A DNA stretch of 64,000 bases. Origin: Candidatus Avimuribaculum pullicola. GTDB lineage: Bacteria; Bacteroidota; Bacteroidia; Bacteroidales; Muribaculaceae. Position numbers and translations under genes: made by a program. This document shows, one piece after another, positions 3,931 to 63,646 of the stretch; within the stretch, counting starts at the first letter, position 1, and the number at the start of each line of letters is the position of its first letter. The stretch covers positions 1 through 64,000 of the forward strand of contig DVKC01000041.1 in the NCBI GenBank assembly GCA_018716295.1, read 5' to 3'. Below the pieces are notes generated by a model, which was not told the origin of the DNA, searched no databases, and worked only from the letters and a program-made list of their open reading frames with translations.

Positions 3931-4668
3931 CTATTGTTTAAAAGCGTTAAGTAACGTGTTTAGCCGTTGTGCAAATTCGGGCATGGAACTGTAAACTATG
4001 TCGGCTCCTGCCTTGGTCATTTCGGCTTCGGGGATAGGGCCAGTGGTAACTCCAATGGTAAAGCAACCTGCACGATGCCCGGCCAACACACCGAGTGGCG
4101 CATTTTCTATCACAATTGCTTCATCGGCTTTGCAGCCAGCCAATTGCAATCCTTTGAGGTACGGCTCAGGGTCGGGTTTGCCATGAGTCACGTTGAGTGC
4201 AGTCACACGCTTGTCGGCGGCGAATATTCCTGGGTAATCGTGAGTGATACGGTCGAGTATGGAGTGTTGGCCCGAGCCAGTCACAAGCACACGTTCGACA
4301 CCTGCATCACGCAGCACCGATAACATTTGTGCTGCTCCAGGCATCAAGGCTGGTTCACCCATTTCAATGAAATATTGCACTTTGCGGGCATAAAGAGCCT
4401 TGGCTTCGTCGGGCGAGGCATCACGGCCGTATGCCCGACGGAACAAGATGTTGATAGTGGCTGCGCCTGTCATTCCCTCGTATGCATAAAATTCATCGCG
4501 AGTACATTCGATGCCCAGTTCGGTAGCCATGCGGAACCACGCCGCTGTGTGATTTCGCATTGAGTCATATAACACACCATCCATGTCGATGAGGGCGGCT
4601 TTCACTCCTCCGGCAGGTATCTTCCTATTGCTAAAATGCTGGTTGACAGATGTTACTTCTTTGTTCAT
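3931..4668 (-). CDS. HAD family hydrolase (beta-phosphoglucomutase/phosphoglycolate phosphatase-like)
   Basis: ALIDMDGVLYDSM, VLVTGSGQ, GKPDPEPYLKGL, VIENAPLGVLAGHRAG; start chosen at MNKEVT. Confidence 0.85.
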   Translation of the reverse strand: MNKEVTSVNQHFSNRKIPAGGVKAALIDMDGVLYDSMRNHTAAWFRMATELGIECTRDEFYAYEGMTGAATINILFRRAYGRDASPDEAKALYARKVQYFIEMGEPALMPGAAQMLSVLRDAGVERVLVTGSGQHSILDRITHDYPGIFAADKRVTALNVTHGKPDPEPYLKGLQLAGCKADEAIVIENAPLGVLAGHRAGCFTIGVTTGPIPEAEMTKAGADIVYSSMPEFAQRLNTLLNAFKQ

Positions 4669-57363: not shown

Positions 57364-57816
57364 TTAAAAGAATACTGCCAGTAGCACGATGCCTACAATT
57401 GTTGCCAACAGCGAGTAAATGTTCCAGAATATGAACCTGATTCCCAATAGCACGTATCCGAGTACTGTGCTCAGGAGTCCGATAATTGCAAAAACTATGT
57501 ATCCGATAATAAAGGCACCAATGATGCAGAGTACGCCATCAAATACGCCACCGTTGACAAACGACATTATGACCCATATTGCCAATGCTATTACTGTGAT
57601 GACACTTGCTGCGACAGTCACCCAGTCGGTGATGTCTTCGATGCGGTCGGCAATCCAGTCGCCAATGTCGGCAACCCAGTCATTTAGCCTTTCCCACCAG
57701 TTATATGTGGGTGCGCTATAGGATTGTGTTGGCGGGGTATAAGTGCTGCGCCGGGTGTCGGGCAGTGGGCGTGCCCTGTTGAGAATAATATTCCCGTGTT
57801 CGTCCATTCGTGCCAT
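57364..57816 (-). CDS. Small multi-TM protein, unknown
   Basis: Hydrophobic C-terminal two-thirds; last gene of the E2-JAB-E1 operon. Confidence 0.65.
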   Translation of the reverse strand: MARMDEHGNIILNRARPLPDTRRSTYTPPTQSYSAPTYNWWERLNDWVADIGDWIADRIEDITDWVTVAASVITVIALAIWVIMSFVNGGVFDGVLCIIGAFIIGYIVFAIIGLLSTVLGYVLLGIRFIFWNIYSLLATIVGIVLLAVFF

Positions 57817-57822
57817 AGTGCA

Positions 57823-59148
57823 TCAATCTTTGTTCTTGTAAGGGACTATAATGCTTGTAGTTACTTGTAACGGATATGTGAAAATAGCGGCTTGTTCGCC
57901 TCCGATGTCGGTGTTGTTGGTGTTGCACACCAGCGTGTATTGTGTCAGGTGTGGTATGAGCCGTTGTGTATATTCGGGATTGTCGCGGTTGAGCAGGTCA
58001 AGGGCCATTTTTATGGCGATGATTGTCACGAAATTCACATCGGCCGATATGCCGGGTTCGAAGCTCACTTTTGCCAAATCCTCTTCGGTGGTGTAGAATC
58101 GGCGGTTTTGCGTCACGCGTCCCGATACGTATCCCACTGCGTCGAGGAAGTCGTCGTAGGTCGGTTGCCCTTGTGGAAGGCAATAGAAGATTTCGCCGGC
58201 AAATGCCCTCTCCCAGCAGCCTACCGACATGAAAGGCATTCCAGCCTCGACCGACAACTGGCATGCGTAGAGGTCGCCCTCGCGGTTGTCGGCACCGCCG
58301 ATAGCTATCGACGAGCTGCCGCAAAATGCGATAACCTCGTCGCGGTCAACTTCTTGTATCATGCAATTCTTCTTCACCACCTTGGCGTATGGATTGATTT
58401 GCAATATGCGGTCGGCCACGGCATCGGTCTTGTAGCGTCCCACATCGTAAATTCCGCATTGGTGGCGGCAGATGTTGTGGTAGCCGAATATGTCGTTGTC
58501 AACCAGCATGAATCGTCCCACGCCAGCCTTGGCAAGCTCTACAGCCACAAGGCTGCCCACCGAGCCGCACCCTATTAGCAGCGCGCCCTTGTCGAGCATT
58601 ATCGACGATTCGAGTATGCCTGTGTTGCGCGAGAACACATCGAGCTTGAGCGAATATGCCTCGGTTTTCACCTCGATGAATGTTTTGCATTGTATTATGT
58701 GCAAAGCATCGTTTTCCCAGTAGCCTACGACACGGTCTTCGCGGTTCCACCAGTCGGCTATTTCCTTGGCAGTATCTTCGTTGCCAAGCAGTGTCGCCAA
58801 CTTGGCTTCGATTTCTTGGCGCGAGGCTCTGCTGGCGGTCGCTTCAGCTGCTTTCCTGTTTTTGACCGCAGCTTGGAAGCGTTCGGCGGCAGTGAGGTTC
58901 TTGTCGATTTTCACGTCAAGCAATTCTACCTTTTGCTGCAGCGCGGCGAAAATATTCACAGGGACAATGCATCCCACCACTTCTACTCTCGATTGGTCGA
59001 TGTTGGCATCGGCCGGCGTGATGTTGAAGTAGTTGGAATTTTCGACGTAGTAGCCGGTAAGCATTGTTATGCCATATTGCTTTCCTGCCGTGGTCAAGTC
59101 GGCAGGAAGCAATATGCGGGGTTCGGGACGTTTCTTAGATATTTCCAT
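57823..59148 (-). CDS. E1-like/ThiF-family adenylating enzyme with about 190-aa N-terminal extension
   Basis: ALLIGCGSVGSLVAVELAKAGVGRFMLVDNDIFGYHNICRHQCGIYDVGRYKTDAVADRILQINPYAKV. Confidence 0.9.
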   Translation of the reverse strand: MEISKKRPEPRILLPADLTTAGKQYGITMLTGYYVENSNYFNITPADANIDQSRVEVVGCIVPVNIFAALQQKVELLDVKIDKNLTAAERFQAAVKNRKAAEATASRASRQEIEAKLATLLGNEDTAKEIADWWNREDRVVGYWENDALHIIQCKTFIEVKTEAYSLKLDVFSRNTGILESSIMLDKGALLIGCGSVGSLVAVELAKAGVGRFMLVDNDIFGYHNICRHQCGIYDVGRYKTDAVADRILQINPYAKVVKKNCMIQEVDRDEVIAFCGSSSIAIGGADNREGDLYACQLSVEAGMPFMSVGCWERAFAGEIFYCLPQGQPTYDDFLDAVGYVSGRVTQNRRFYTTEEDLAKVSFEPGISADVNFVTIIAIKMALDLLNRDNPEYTQRLIPHLTQYTLVCNTNNTDIGGEQAAIFTYPLQVTTSIIVPYKNKD

Positions 59149-59860
59149 TGCTCACCAATTTTCTGATTATTTTTTTGAAGTCGTTATATGCATCATCGGG
59201 AGTGTATCCCTTTGCGCTTTTAATGTCGGCTTGCATGATGGTGTCGATTATCTCGGTGTTGCTTTCATCGCTGCCATCGTCATTGGCAACCTGTTCTTCG
59301 CGGCGAGTGGTGTCTTCTACTACGCCACGGCTATTGAACACTGGCAAATCTTCTTCGGTGGTGAAACGAAGTGCAACAAAGTCGTCGGGAATCATTTCGC
59401 CGTTATCGACATACCAGTCGATGTCTTCGTATTCGCCATGCTGATCGACGTGATACATGGTGATGCGCATCTTCGGGTCGCAGTTTACCAATGCCGATAT
59501 TGCACCGTAACGCCTCCCTTTGGCAAATAGCAAATTGGTTTCGTCGTCGGTTGATGAAAACACGTCCATACTGCCAGGGTGCCGATGCCACAATCCCAAC
59601 ACTTGCATGCTGAGTCTGCCCTCGTATTGTGTGGCGACTACATTTTGCAGGTAATTGACAAATTCGGCATCATATTCAAAGTAGGCCTGGCGGTGTATGG
59701 TGTGGTAGCCAGGCGGGATGTTTTCAATTACGACCCACACGCCATTGTCGAGGATATACCCGATGAGTATTCCACCTGTTTCGATGGGATGCTTGTCGAT
59801 TGTTTCAGTCACAATGGCATTGAAAGCCCGTTGTGTGAACACTACGTAGGGTTTGTCCAT
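59135..59860 (-). CDS. JAB/MPN+ (JAMM) metalloprotease, deubiquitinase-like
   Basis: ETGGILIGY plus GLWHRHPGSMDVFSSTDD: exact HxH-x7-S-x2-D. Confidence 0.9.
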   Translation of the reverse strand: MDKPYVVFTQRAFNAIVTETIDKHPIETGGILIGYILDNGVWVVIENIPPGYHTIHRQAYFEYDAEFVNYLQNVVATQYEGRLSMQVLGLWHRHPGSMDVFSSTDDETNLLFAKGRRYGAISALVNCDPKMRITMYHVDQHGEYEDIDWYVDNGEMIPDDFVALRFTTEEDLPVFNSRGVVEDTTRREEQVANDDGSDESNTEIIDTIMQADIKSAKGYTPDDAYNDFKKIIRKLVSNGNI

Positions 59861-59867
59861 AGCTGTG

Positions 59868-60653
59868 TCAAATTCCGTCGGGTCGGTTGAAGTCGGCTTC
59901 GCTCAGTTCCCCTATCATCACTAATTCCAGAGCAGTGAGCCACTTGACGGCTAAGGCCAGTGTGGTGACAGCGGTCGAATAGGAATGGGCAGTATTGGTG
60001 AGGTCTTCGGCACGGGTGGTGCAGAGGAATTTCCCTCCTTCACCATCGTTTATCAGGTGGTGTGGATAGTATCCCAGCGCGTCGTGTACATCTTCCACGG
60101 TCGGTTGCCGCAGGTACACCCTTACAGTTCCGCCCATGACTGGGGTAGGGTAGTTGGGTGGGTATATTGCCAGCAATTCCCATTCCATGTCTTCCATGAA
60201 GCCAGGTTTTACTGTCCCAATCCAGCACATGCTGCCGTCTTCCAGTTTATAGAGTTCAAAATTTTTGAAAGGAGATTGGCGCATGAGGTCGATTTCGTCG
60301 TCGAGCATTTGAGGGTCGCGCTCATACCATTGAGCAGCCAGCTTGCCAGGTTGCGTGGTCAATTCTGTGCGTTCTTTCCCAGTAGTGTCGCCTTTGTCGC
60401 CCAATTGCACGGGACGTCCTTCCACCAAGTCCTTGGCTACCTTTTTTGCCGACTTGATTTTTGTTGGGTCTAATGCCAGTTTGCCAGGTTGTGTGGTCAA
60501 TTTAGTGCGTTCTTTTCCAGTGGTGTCACCATTGTCGCCCAATTGCACAGGTCGTCCTTCCACTAAGTCCTTGGCCACTTTTTTTGCCGATTTCAGTTTT
60601 GTGGGGTCCAAAGCCAAACGTCCGCTTGGGACCACGAGGAGATTTTTGTTCAT
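59868..60653 (-). CDS. Prokaryotic E2-like (ubiquitin-conjugating fold) protein with duplicated N-terminal module
   Basis: WELLAIYPPNYPTPVMGGTVRVYL...HHLINDGEGGKFLCTTRAEDLTNTAHSYSTAVTTLALAVKWLTALEL matches the E2 pattern YPxxYP..H..G..LC...W(L). Confidence 0.7.
   Translation of the reverse strand: MNKNLLVVPSGRLALDPTKLKSAKKVAKDLVEGRPVQLGDNGDTTGKERTKLTTQPGKLALDPTKIKSAKKVAKDLVEGRPVQLGDKGDTTGKERTELTTQPGKLAAQWYERDPQMLDDEIDLMRQSPFKNFELYKLEDGSMCWIGTVKPGFMEDMEWELLAIYPPNYPTPVMGGTVRVYLRQPTVEDVHDALGYYPHHLINDGEGGKFLCTTRAEDLTNTAHSYSTAVTTLALAVKWLTALELVMIGELSEADFNRPDGI
60343..60618. repeat. Two diverged 138-bp tandem units inside the E2-like gene
   Basis: GTGCGTTCTTT at 60367 and 60505; encodes [GK/R]LALDPTK[L/I]KSAKKVAKDLVEGRPVQLGD[N/K]GDTTGKERT[K/E]LTTQP twice. 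Confidence 0.92.
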
Positions 60654-60784
60654 AATAGTTTAGTTTTAATGGCAGGTTCTTTTAATGGTGTTTAGCTTGA
60701 CGAAGTCGGCAGAACCTATTATCCAATCTTCTACAATAATAAACTCTCTATATTGTTAGTTGTTGCTAAGTGCATTCGATAATG

Positions 60785-60815
60785 CAAATATAAGTATTTA
60801 TTTGTTCATTGGCAA
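60785..60815 (-). promoter_or_regulatory. Bacteroidetes promoter of the E2-JAB-E1 operon
   Basis: Minus strand TTG-N20-TATATTTG. Confidence 0.6.
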
Positions 60816-60881
60816 CATTGCAGCCATTAGTGTAAAATGATGTTCATAGCCAATCGTGATGAATTTTAATGGATTCGTTTG

Positions 60882-61289
60882 CTAAGAATTTTTGGGGCTG
60901 CTCGGACGTTGCTTTTTGCTGTAAGCATTTTGTGCTTCAGATACAGCGGCAAGATTGGTTGAGGAAGTTTCCACATCATTAAATGAATATGGAACAGGAA
61001 TATTGATAAGTTCAAGCCCTAACGATTCTTGCAAGGCAGATATTGTTTCCAAAGTCAAATTTTCTTGCCCTTTAAGCAATTTGGCAATATATGAAGGAGA
61101 AACGCCTATGCTATTGGCCAACTCTTTCTGTGTCATGCCTTTTTGATGTAAGCAGAAACGTATGGACAGTGCTATGTTTTGTGAAAGGCGCAGCCATTTT
61201 CGGTTGCGTTTCCTGTATTCCTCGGCTTGTATGTCTTCCATTGGCCGGTCTTTGGCAATGGCTTTTAGCTTTTCAATATTGAAATTCAT
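60882..61289 (-). CDS. XRE-family HTH protein (antitoxin-like)
   Basis: SIRFCLHQKGMTQKELANSIGVSPSYIAKLLKGQENLTLETISALQESLGLELI. Confidence 0.9.
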   Translation of the reverse strand: MNFNIEKLKAIAKDRPMEDIQAEEYRKRNRKWLRLSQNIALSIRFCLHQKGMTQKELANSIGVSPSYIAKLLKGQENLTLETISALQESLGLELINIPVPYSFNDVETSSTNLAAVSEAQNAYSKKQRPSSPKNS

Positions 61290-61310: not shown

Positions 61311-61468
61311 TTATATATCTTCCTCATCGATTATTCCGTTGATTCTCAACCAGGCTCTGCATATTCGATATCATTCCATTCATATAGAAGACGGTCATAT
61401 TCATTTTTGTCATGTCCGTCATATTGAATGCTATAAATATATGGAGGGAATATTTTGATTATTTCCAC
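61311..61468 (-). pseudogene. Truncated/frameshifted small protein resembling a HigB-type toxin N-terminus
   Basis: GTG start VEIIKIFPPYIYSIQYDGHDKNEYDRLLYEWNDIEYAEPG*; continuation RAWLRINGIIDEEDI* in another frame; directly upstream of the HTH gene; absent from the ORF track. Confidence 0.45.
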
Positions 61469-61711
61469 GACCGAGATTTATTAATACTGCAAATATAATA
61501 CTTTGTGTTTAATTATAATACAAAATACGCAAAAAATCAACTTATGGGTTGATTTTTATTGTTATTGCATAATAAGAGCGTCTGTTTGTTCACTTTATGC
61601 CGCTCCTTGGAGTTTGTGGCTTGGGGATATTGTGTAAAAGTAGTATTTTTGTGTGAATTTGGGTGGCGCATGTGGTTTTGCTTGGCATGTGCCAGCGTGA
61701 AAATAATCAAG

Positions 61712-63646
61712 ATGGGAAATAAAGAAGAATTGAAATATGACAAGGGGCTTGTCTTGGAGCATCTCAAAGCCCCTGCTTTTGGAATTGTAGGCGAGGTTGC
61801 CGACGAGATGGGGCGTGAGTGTTATGTAGTTGGAGGGTATGTGCGTGACATATTCCTTGGTCGAGTATCCAAGGACATAGATTTCGTGACAGTAGGCAGT
61901 GGTATCGAAGTGGCCGAGAAAGTCCAGCAACGGCTTGGGCGGAAGGCATCGTTGGCTGTTTTCCGTAACTTTGGCACGGCGCAAGTGAAATGGCAGGGCG
62001 GTGAGCTTGAGTTTGTCGGGGCACGTCGCGAATCATACACCCGCGACAGCCGCAATCCTATTGTGGAAGATGGGACGCTTGACGATGACCAACGCCGCCG
62101 CGACTTTACAATCAATGCTATGGCTGTGTGTGTCAATCGTGGACGTTTCGGCGAGTTGCTCGACCCATTTGGTGGAATTGACGACTTGAACGCAGGTATT
62201 ATACGTACACCACTCGACCCCGACATAACTTTCTCGGACGACCCGTTGCGCATGATGAGGGCCATCAGGTTTGCCACGCAACTCGGTTTTGAGATATATC
62301 CCGATACATTTGCCGCTATTGAGCGAAATCGCGAACGAATAGGCATAATTTCACATGAACGCATTGCCGATGAATTGATGAAGATTATGAAGTCGGGCAC
62401 ACCGTCGCGAGGTTTCATGCTGCTCGACCGATGCCGCTTGCTCGAAATTATTTTCCCTGAATTGGCCGCGTTGAAAGGCGTGGAAACGATGAACGGGCGT
62501 GGGCATAAAGATAATTTCTTGCACACGATGCAGGTGCTTGACAACGTGGCTGCAAGCAGCGACAATGTGTGGTTGCGGTGGGCTGCGCTTTTGCACGATA
62601 TTGCCAAACCTGCCACAAAACGTTATGATGAAAAACTCGGCTGGACGTTCCATAACCATAATTTCATAGGCGAAAAGATGGTGCCGCGTATATTCAAGCG
62701 CATGCGTTTGCCTATGAACGAAAAAATGAAATATGTGGCCAAACTTGTGGGGTTGCACATGCGCCCGATAGCATTGGTCGAGGAGGTTGTCACAGACTCG
62801 GCAGTAAGACGACTGTTGTTTGATGCCGGTGATGATATCGATGACCTTATGACATTGTGTGCTGCCGACATCACATCGAAAAATCGAGAAAAAGTGCGCC
62901 GTTTCAAGGAAAATTACGACCTCGTGCGGCGTAAGTTGGTGGAATTGGAGGAGAAAGACCGCATACGCAATTTCCAGCCGCCAGTTACTGGTGAAGAGAT
63001 AATGACAACATTCGGCTTGAAGCCATGTAGCGAGGTGGGCAAGATTAAAGAAGCTATAAAGAATGCCATACTTGATGGCAAGGTGGCAAACGACCATGCG
63101 GCTGCACATCAGTTTATGCTTGCCGTGGCTGTAGAAATGGGTTTGCGGCCTGTGGCGGTCGAGTCTTCGGTGCAGGGTGAAGCCCGTGAAGTGTATCATT
63201 CTCCGATTGGCGATATGCTGCTTGTGTCGGATGGTAAGGGGCTGGCTGAATGTCGATTTGTTGATGAAGTGGATATGGAGGCAAATGCTGCAAAGGGGAA
63301 TGCCATTACCAACTTGGCTGCCAAACAGCTTGCCGAGTACTTTGCTGGTACGCGGCGCGATTTCACTGTGCCACTCTCGATGCATGGTACTGACTTCCAG
63401 CAACAAGTGTGGCAACAATTGACAAAAATACCATACGGGACTTATATGACTTATGCACAAGTTGCTGCCGCTATAGGCAATCCGCAGGCAACTCGTGCCG
63501 TAGGGAACGCCAATGGTCGAAATCCTGTGGTTGTGATTGTACCGTGCCACCGCGTGCTTGCATCGGGTGGTCGTCTTGGTGGATATTCGGCAGGACTTGA
63601 ACGCAAAGAATATTTGCTGAAGTTGGAATCAATAGCAGTGAAATAG
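61712..63646 (+). CDS. CCA tRNA nucleotidyltransferase (HD-domain) fused to methylated-DNA-[protein]-cysteine S-methyltransferase
   Basis: N-term YVVGGYVRDIFLGRVSKDIDFVTVG, RRRDFTINAMAV, LLHDIAKPATK; C-term YHSPIGDMLLVSDGKGLAEC, QQVWQQLTKIPYGTYMTYAQVAAAIG, IVPCHRVLASGGRLGGYSAGLERKEYLLKLE; start at MGNKEEL. Confidence 0.9.
   Translation: MGNKEELKYDKGLVLEHLKAPAFGIVGEVADEMGRECYVVGGYVRDIFLGRVSKDIDFVTVGSGIEVAEKVQQRLGRKASLAVFRNFGTAQVKWQGGELEFVGARRESYTRDSRNPIVEDGTLDDDQRRRDFTINAMAVCVNRGRFGELLDPFGGIDDLNAGIIRTPLDPDITFSDDPLRMMRAIRFATQLGFEIYPDTFAAIERNRERIGIISHERIADELMKIMKSGTPSRGFMLLDRCRLLEIIFPELAALKGVETMNGRGHKDNFLHTMQVLDNVAASSDNVWLRWAALLHDIAKPATKRYDEKLGWTFHNHNFIGEKMVPRIFKRMRLPMNEKMKYVAKLVGLHMRPIALVEEVVTDSAVRRLLFDAGDDIDDLMTLCAADITSKNREKVRRFKENYDLVRRKLVELEEKDRIRNFQPPVTGEEIMTTFGLKPCSEVGKIKEAIKNAILDGKVANDHAAAHQFMLAVAVEMGLRPVAVESSVQGEAREVYHSPIGDMLLVSDGKGLAECRFVDEVDMEANAAKGNAITNLAAKQLAEYFAGTRRDFTVPLSMHGTDFQQQVWQQLTKIPYGTYMTYAQVAAAIGNPQATRAVGNANGRNPVVVIVPCHRVLASGGRLGGYSAGLERKEYLLKLESIAVK

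Follow-up and report, generated by a model that had tools for sequence, protein, structure and literature searches.

A short peptide encoded at the start of an E2 gene as the probable modifier of a ubiquitin-type conjugation cassette in Candidatus Avimuribaculum pullicola

Introduction

What would ubiquitin-type enzymes transfer when no ubiquitin-like protein (Ubl) can be recognised beside them? This question is raised by a minus-strand operon of Candidatus Avimuribaculum pullicola, which lies in positions 1 to 64,000 of contig DVKC01000041.1 (this whole 64-kb stretch is called the window below) and encodes an E2-like protein, a JAB/JAMM metallopeptidase, an E1-like adenylating enzyme and a membrane protein. 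The original prediction, made from the sequence alone, read these genes as an E1/E2/JAB conjugation cassette without a classical Ubl, and our analysis supports that reading. It also listed four alternatives for the modifier: it could be encoded elsewhere, be the transmembrane (TM) protein, be embedded in extensions of E2 or E1, or there could be none. An extension of E2 turned out to be clearly the best supported of these, and the missing modifier most likely sits inside the E2 gene itself, judging from sequence comparison. We thus regard the cassette as probably a ubiquitin-type conjugation system whose modifier is a short peptide without the beta-grasp fold that is synthesised as part of one polyprotein together with its E2.

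A leader and two tandem units precede the E2 domain

Residues 1-106 of the E2 open reading frame (ORF), overlooked in the original prediction, consist of a 14-amino-acid leader and two 46-amino-acid repeats, each of which ends in PGKLA. In translation, the N-terminus reads MNKNLLVVPSGRLA (leader), LDPTKLKSAKKVAKDLVEGRPVQLGDNGDTTGKERTKLTTQPGKLA (unit 1) and LDPTKIKSAKKVAKDLVEGRPVQLGDKGDTTGKERTELTTQPGKLA (unit 2), followed by AQWYERDP. All three segments, the leader as well as the two units, close with P(x)G[K/R]LA, and many relatives share the leader motif. The alignment of units shows a helix, a short strand with an invariant glycine, a linker and the terminal GKLA, with G28, G43, L45 and A46 invariant; no match was found when the unit was compared with ubiquitin-like families and structures.

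Strong purifying selection acts on these units. In a comparison of the window with G003, a genome of the same genus, unit 1 differs at 17 synonymous and 0 nonsynonymous sites, and the ratio of nonsynonymous to synonymous substitution rates (dN/dS) between units 1 and 2 of the window is 0.05.

The unit occurs both fused to E2 and as a separate gene

Relatives were collected by scanning an E1 alignment over 84,980 species, with one genome each, which yielded 117 relatives; 80 loci from these were retained. A maximum-likelihood tree placed the window in clade A (62 rows including the window; the other 61 are loci L022-L082), with support of 100/100; clade B has 19 rows, including the long-branch L083. 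Gene order in clade A is E2-JAB-E1 in nearly all loci (one relative, L035, has a JAB-E1 fusion), and the unit accompanies E2 in nearly all of them. It is fused to E2 in 38 of the 61 loci, where its last motif stops 1-4 residues short of the E2 domain; in 19 others (18 found by script, plus L070) it has a small gene of its own immediately upstream of E2, with a product ending in VPxGKLA plus 0-4 residues. Both forms are present in two loci, and two more (L081, L082) are divergent.

The junction between unit and enzyme is clean: L060 reads EGKLA-SFYWYE in one protein, whereas in L051 the small gene stops directly after GKLA and E2 begins with MASFYWYE, as it does, exactly or similarly, in loci with a separate unit. 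Twelve separate modifiers end exactly in GKLA or GVLA, and the others carry the tails A, T, R, KQ, RGE, RRS, RRG, FKEA or TTEV; such tails of 1-4 residues resemble those of Ubl precursors. As a control, the C-terminal motif was sought in 5,980 ORFs of 40-220 amino acids from the same loci, and all 21 matches (21/21) stood beside E2. The sequences show the repeats, their selection, their fusion to or separation from E2, and the conserved C-terminus.

It could be argued that the units stay on E2 for good, without being cleaved, and serve as a docking extension that recruits E1, JAB or a scaffold, with the true modifier encoded elsewhere or being the membrane protein. Presence of the unit beside E2 in nearly every clade-A locus would suit such a role. 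On the other hand, a conserved C-terminal end followed by short variable tails, as seen in the 19 loci with a separate unit gene, would be needless for docking, and every tandem copy closes with the same motif. We therefore consider this explanation unlikely.

As the motif had been found in genome loci, a fresh and independent collection, IMG/VR, was then searched. A single related contig with the full set (L120) encodes a 63-amino-acid protein ending in KAPEGKLA, an E2 (154 amino acids), JAB, E1 and a 1153-amino-acid gene product of the same length as FtsK in its relatives, and this layout agrees with the prediction. A fecal phage record (L121), whose start is cut off, holds a partial JAB, E1, a large gene and a recombinase-like ORF. 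A search of 395 genomes of the phylum with the unit profile gave one further genome, G883, which we count as no new evidence because its contig is as long as that of L060.

No other modifier was recognised at the locus or in the genome

Scans with Pfam, NCBIfam and PADLOC revealed no beta-grasp Ubl at the locus, and no beta-grasp protein was recognised in the clade-A cassettes. The original prediction could have been overturned by homologous loci carrying an obvious Ubl; none was recognised in the core cassettes of the 61 clade-A loci. In the window's own genome (83% complete) there was no ThiS/MoaD match above cut-off, and the unit profile matched only the two copies in this E2; because of this, a modifier encoded elsewhere in the genome is disfavoured. 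The TM protein was rejected as a modifier, as its C-terminus is not conserved among homologues. The lack of a recognised Ubl at the locus, the ThiS/MoaD result and the unconserved TM C-termini also count against the docking extension. A Ubl embedded in the N-terminal domain of E1 was likewise rejected, at the level of the whole E1 model: the best matches of this AlphaFold2 (AF2) model are Cap2/BubCD-like E1 proteins.

All three enzymes retain their active-site residues

The E2-like protein has no Pfam E2 match; PADLOC E2 models match residues 117-246 at 8e-6 and 1.7e-5. H199 and C211, the latter the candidate catalytic cysteine, are invariant in 44 homologues. In the AF2 model of the ORF the E2 domain is fairly confident, with a predicted local distance difference test score (pLDDT) of about 74-90 over most of residues 107-261 and lower values near 211-223. 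A Foldseek search of the PDB with this domain ranked first 8yjy, the CBASS (cyclic-oligonucleotide-based anti-phage signalling system) CdnG-E2 complex (probability 1.00, E 1.5e-3), followed by UFC1 and UbcH7. Absence of an E2 fold would have spoken against the earlier reading, and these searches recovered that fold.

JAB matches Pfam Prok-JAB at 9.8e-11, and the JAMM motif noticed before is intact, with E27, H92, H94, S102 and D105 invariant in 23 homologues. E1 matches Pfam ThiF at 6.1e-23; its predicted nucleotide-binding loop likewise held, residues G193, G195, D217, D219, R228, K240 and D287 of the ATP site being invariant in 32 homologues. Its AF2 model (mean pLDDT 81.6) matches BubCD (with the best E-value), Cap2, MccB, ThiF and UBA5 in Foldseek. 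The locus thus combines what defines a ubiquitin-type cassette: an E1 of the ThiF fold, an E2 fold with its cysteine, and a JAMM metallopeptidase. As a separate observation, two CxxC pairs near residue 325 and at the C-terminus of E1, which are kept in L013 and L016, are gone in the window, an apparent joint loss of a zinc site.

Resemblance of E1 to MccB and PaaA, in both sequence and structure, together with the shortness of the units, makes it conceivable that E1 activates the unit as MccB does MccA, yielding a small peptide in modified form, as a toxin or signal, whose release would be governed by E2 and JAB. We find this quite improbable, since the invariant His and Cys of E2 and the JAMM residues indicate conjugation and deconjugation; to our knowledge, MccB/PaaA systems are without E2 or JAB, which also counts against it.

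Another scenario would be a decayed Bil- or CBASS-type system that has lost its Ubl or CD-NTase. The order of the genes is that of BilB-C-D, and E2 and E1 resemble CBASS, Bub and Cap2 proteins. However, 61 loci from many phyla, in one supported clade, share a core cassette in which neither a Ubl nor a CD-NTase was recognised, all active sites are kept, and E2 is under purifying selection. This scenario is largely refuted, and we give it hardly any credit.

A proposed pathway and the points that weigh against it

If the units are indeed modifiers fused to E2, cleavage, activation, conjugation and the target may be envisaged as follows. In an ORF laid out as leader, unit, unit and E2 domain, JAB would cut after each GxLA, releasing two near-identical 46-amino-acid modifiers and E2, by analogy with deubiquitinases acting on polyubiquitin and ubiquitin-ribosomal fusions. 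E1, with its conserved nucleotide-site residues, would then adenylate the C-terminal alanine of the modifier, which would pass to Cys211 of E2, with His199 in the active site (both invariant), and from there to a target. JAB might also take the modifier off again. The membrane protein could tentatively be considered a target, anchor or effector.

Several observations weigh against this proposal. In the AF2 model the units, a helix with short strands, have low confidence (pLDDT 50-70), and the model therefore supports neither a folded modifier nor docking into E1 or JAB; at the same time, low predicted order would suit the flexible tether of a docking extension, and N-terminal extensions of some eukaryotic E2s do dock to E1 and stay uncleaved. 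Internal copies in the window read QPGKLA instead of PxGKLA, and the regular expression for the motif was derived from these same loci, with L120 as the exception. Finally, formation of a thioester on E1 is uncertain, because no cysteine is conserved in the crossover loop (FEPGISADxNF); the sole cysteine common to E1 of both clades is C231 in an RHxC motif (31/32 and 7/7).

Operon layout and genomic site

All four minus-strand ORFs are located where they had been predicted (Table 1), as are the gap of 7 base pairs between E2 and JAB and the 14-base-pair overlap of JAB and E1. A pattern scan also recovered the promoter-like site upstream of the operon; the window holds 8 occurrences of this Bacteroidetes-type pattern, with 1.2 expected by chance.

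Table 1. Features of the operon in the window and the evidence for them.
Feature	Position	Strand	Length	Basis or detail
E2-JAB-E1-membrane-protein operon, promoter-led	57364-60816	-		
Promoter-like site TTG-N20-TATATTTG, upstream of operon	60785-60815	-		Pattern scan
E2-like ORF	59868-60653	-	261 aa	
Leader MNKNLLVVPSGRLA, ends in PxGxLA motif	60612-60653	-	14 aa	Translation
Candidate modifier unit 1, ends in TTQPGKLA	60474-60611	-	46 aa	Substitutions versus G003; unit alignment
Candidate modifier unit 2, ends in TTQPGKLA, abuts E2 domain	60336-60473	-	46 aa	dN/dS; genome profile search
E2 (UBC-fold) domain	59868-60335	-		Invariant His and Cys in 44 homologues; AF2 and Foldseek
E2 His199	60057-60059	-		
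E2 Cys211	60021-60023	-		
JAB/JAMM metallopeptidase	59135-59860	-	241 aa	E27, H92xH94, S102, D105
E1-like adenylating enzyme	57823-59148	-	441 aa	ThiF fold in C-terminal part; N-terminal domain of 160-180 aa
Membrane protein, N-terminal tag MARMDEHGNIILNR	57364-57816	-	150 aa	Homologues beside E1 in relatives

The operon's neighbours are, at one end, genes for sulfatase, DUF6048 and SDR proteins and, at the other, helix-turn-helix (HTH) and poly(A)-polymerase-like genes. In G003 the cassette occupies the same chromosomal site, flanked by the sulfatase gene and by that for the poly(A)-polymerase-like protein, and no HTH gene is present. Being missing from this sister locus, the HTH gene (60882-61289), which lies upstream of E2, is probably outside the operon, and we rejected it as a member of the system. 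This gene is antitoxin-like, and it is preceded by a remnant of roughly 40 codons (about 61347-61469, minus strand) that resembles a truncated toxin partner; at the corresponding site in G003 this is absent. On the plus strand, 61559-63646 encodes in one ORF a poly(A)-polymerase/CCA-type protein with an apparent C-terminal part like O6-methylguanine-DNA methyltransferase.

G003 aside, E2 was found in none of the seven genus mates searched (0/7); five of the seven have the sulfatase, with no cassette beside it. A plasmid search with E2 gave no match. Clade A as a whole is scattered over Bacteroidota, Clostridia, Coriobacteriia, Spirochaetota, Planctomycetota, Chloroflexota, Methanosarcina and Candidatus Thiomargarita, which suggests horizontal transfer; many rows are metagenome-assembled genomes (MAGs), for which mis-binning is possible. 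One MAG labelled Clostridium (L042) has an E1 nested among Bacteroidota loci and is either mis-binned or the product of a recent transfer.

The membrane protein and partner genes

Homologues of the membrane protein adjoin E1 in L022-L028 and L035, several of them with a C-terminal bacterial SH3 domain. Proteins encoded downstream of E1 (57364-57816 in the window, and those of L033, L034, L047, L050 and L067) often begin with a tag such as INEYGEIIR or IDKHGQIIR, with several tagged proteins per locus; by regular expression the tag occurs in 24 of 79 loci versus 2.7% of other ORFs. It resembles the glycine hairpin of the modifier unit. In L033 a small TM protein (4119-4400) has an N-terminus, ISIPATKMAGDDSLRQKQEELKRKLQ, that copies the leader and helix of the modifier.

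About 28 clade-A cassettes lie beside FtsK/SpoIIIE-type and often WXG100-like genes. In the window's subclade it is the membrane protein that follows E1, and FtsK/WXG100 genes are not nearby; the genome holds one FtsK-like match and no WXG100 above cut-off in its 83% complete assembly, and such partners were thus not found there. Together with the clade-B neighbours described below, these partner genes would point to conflict or secretion biology.

Clade B encodes a small protein of its own

The gene order of clade B is JAB-E2-small protein-E1. Its small proteins, mostly of about 58-86 amino acids, have a conserved end, mostly DGF[FA] (KDGFF, KDGFA), that is either exactly terminal or followed by a short variable tail; in L100 two copies lie within one 160-amino-acid ORF. 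Whether the conserved end is the mature terminus is ambiguous, because the small proteins of L016 and L017 read PYY and that of L101 reads PYFA. JABs of L016 (11559-12536) and L017 (11225-12205) have a C-terminal extension resembling a second RWD/E2-like domain. Neighbouring genes in this clade include PtuA/PtuB of Septu (L095, 7885-9958), ThsB (L096, 7957-8445) and an IetA-like AAA protein (L088, 7941-9602), homologues of which are also found in L085 and L098.

Taking both clades together, we lean towards a widespread class of conjugation systems, in which a peptide of 45-65 amino acids, not beta-grasp and possibly partly disordered, ending in Gly-Lys-Leu-Ala, would be made singly or as an E2-fused polyprotein matured by a JAMM protease, and would be used by machines of the FtsK/WXG100 type, similar to type VII secretion systems (T7SS), with a sister clade beside anti-phage genes. 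If true, ubiquitin-type chemistry would be tied to secretion-like systems and anti-phage loci, and a very small tag would become available for biochemistry.

Comparison with known systems

As far as available literature and libraries show, the cassette fits no described Bil, PRTRC, Bub or CBASS type. Like BilABCD, the bacterial ISG15-like system, it has separate E2, JAB and E1 genes in the same order, as the original prediction had pointed out; the likeness ends at that order, since there is no BilA Ubl at the window locus, and the solved bacterial E1-E2-Ubl complex 8tz0 is a weak match (Foldseek E 0.39). BubCD gives the E1 model its best E-value, but Bub operons (BubA/BubB/BubCD) encode BubA, which is a Ubl, as well as the BubCD fusion; the window locus has no Ubl, and its JAB and E1 are encoded by two ORFs. 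The PRTRC ThiF family TIGR03736 scores 14.9 bits against a cut-off of 144.75.

Polyubiquitin and ubiquitin-ribosomal fusions likewise have tandem near-identical units fused to another protein, a shared C-terminal motif and a candidate processing protease, but the present unit, of 46 amino acids, is no beta-grasp in either size or sequence; it ends in Leu-Ala and is joined to its own E2. Pup is also a short, apparently flexible modifier; it ends in GGQ/GGE and uses PafA/Dop, not E1/E2/JAB. Type VII secretion (EssC-type FtsK with WXG100) is linked to the cassette through the genes of about 28 clade-A relatives, and its hallmark genes were not found together in the window's genome. Neither ThiF nor an isopeptidase is mentioned in a 2024 survey of T7SS variants (PMC11217815), and we did not find the present arrangement among rows 6a-6e and the FtsK-linked YukD clusters of Iyer et al. 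2006 (PMC1779556).

The closest parallel is offered by CBASS. Type II CBASS with Cap2/Cap3 (row 6b of Iyer et al. 2006) also has E1, E2 and JAB, with a close E1 fold and close JAB and E2 profiles; the window, however, has E1 and E2 as two proteins and a 46-amino-acid repeat on E2 as candidate modifier, and CD-NTase and effector were not recognised among the operon neighbours. The E2 of type II-short CBASS (8yjy), our top structural match, serves CdnG, and no CdnG is present here. Jenson et al. 2023 reported that Cap2 conjugates cGAS, which has no ubiquitin fold, via a C-terminal Gly or Ala, and that a tandem Sumo-cGAS-cGAS fusion is cleaved by Cap3 behind its first cGAS (PMC10097602). By analogy, our cassette would fit Cap2/Cap3 chemistry, with a small peptide as its dedicated modifier. 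The usual definition of the ubiquitin system is by fold; CBASS enzymes attach a large non-ubiquitin protein, and here such enzymes are apparently paired with a small dedicated peptide, which is encoded in the manner of polyubiquitin but joined to E2. If this is true, E1/E2/JAB machinery needs no ubiquitin fold in a small modifier, its enzymology is separable from the beta-grasp, and the question of what E1, E2 and JAB actually recognise becomes testable.

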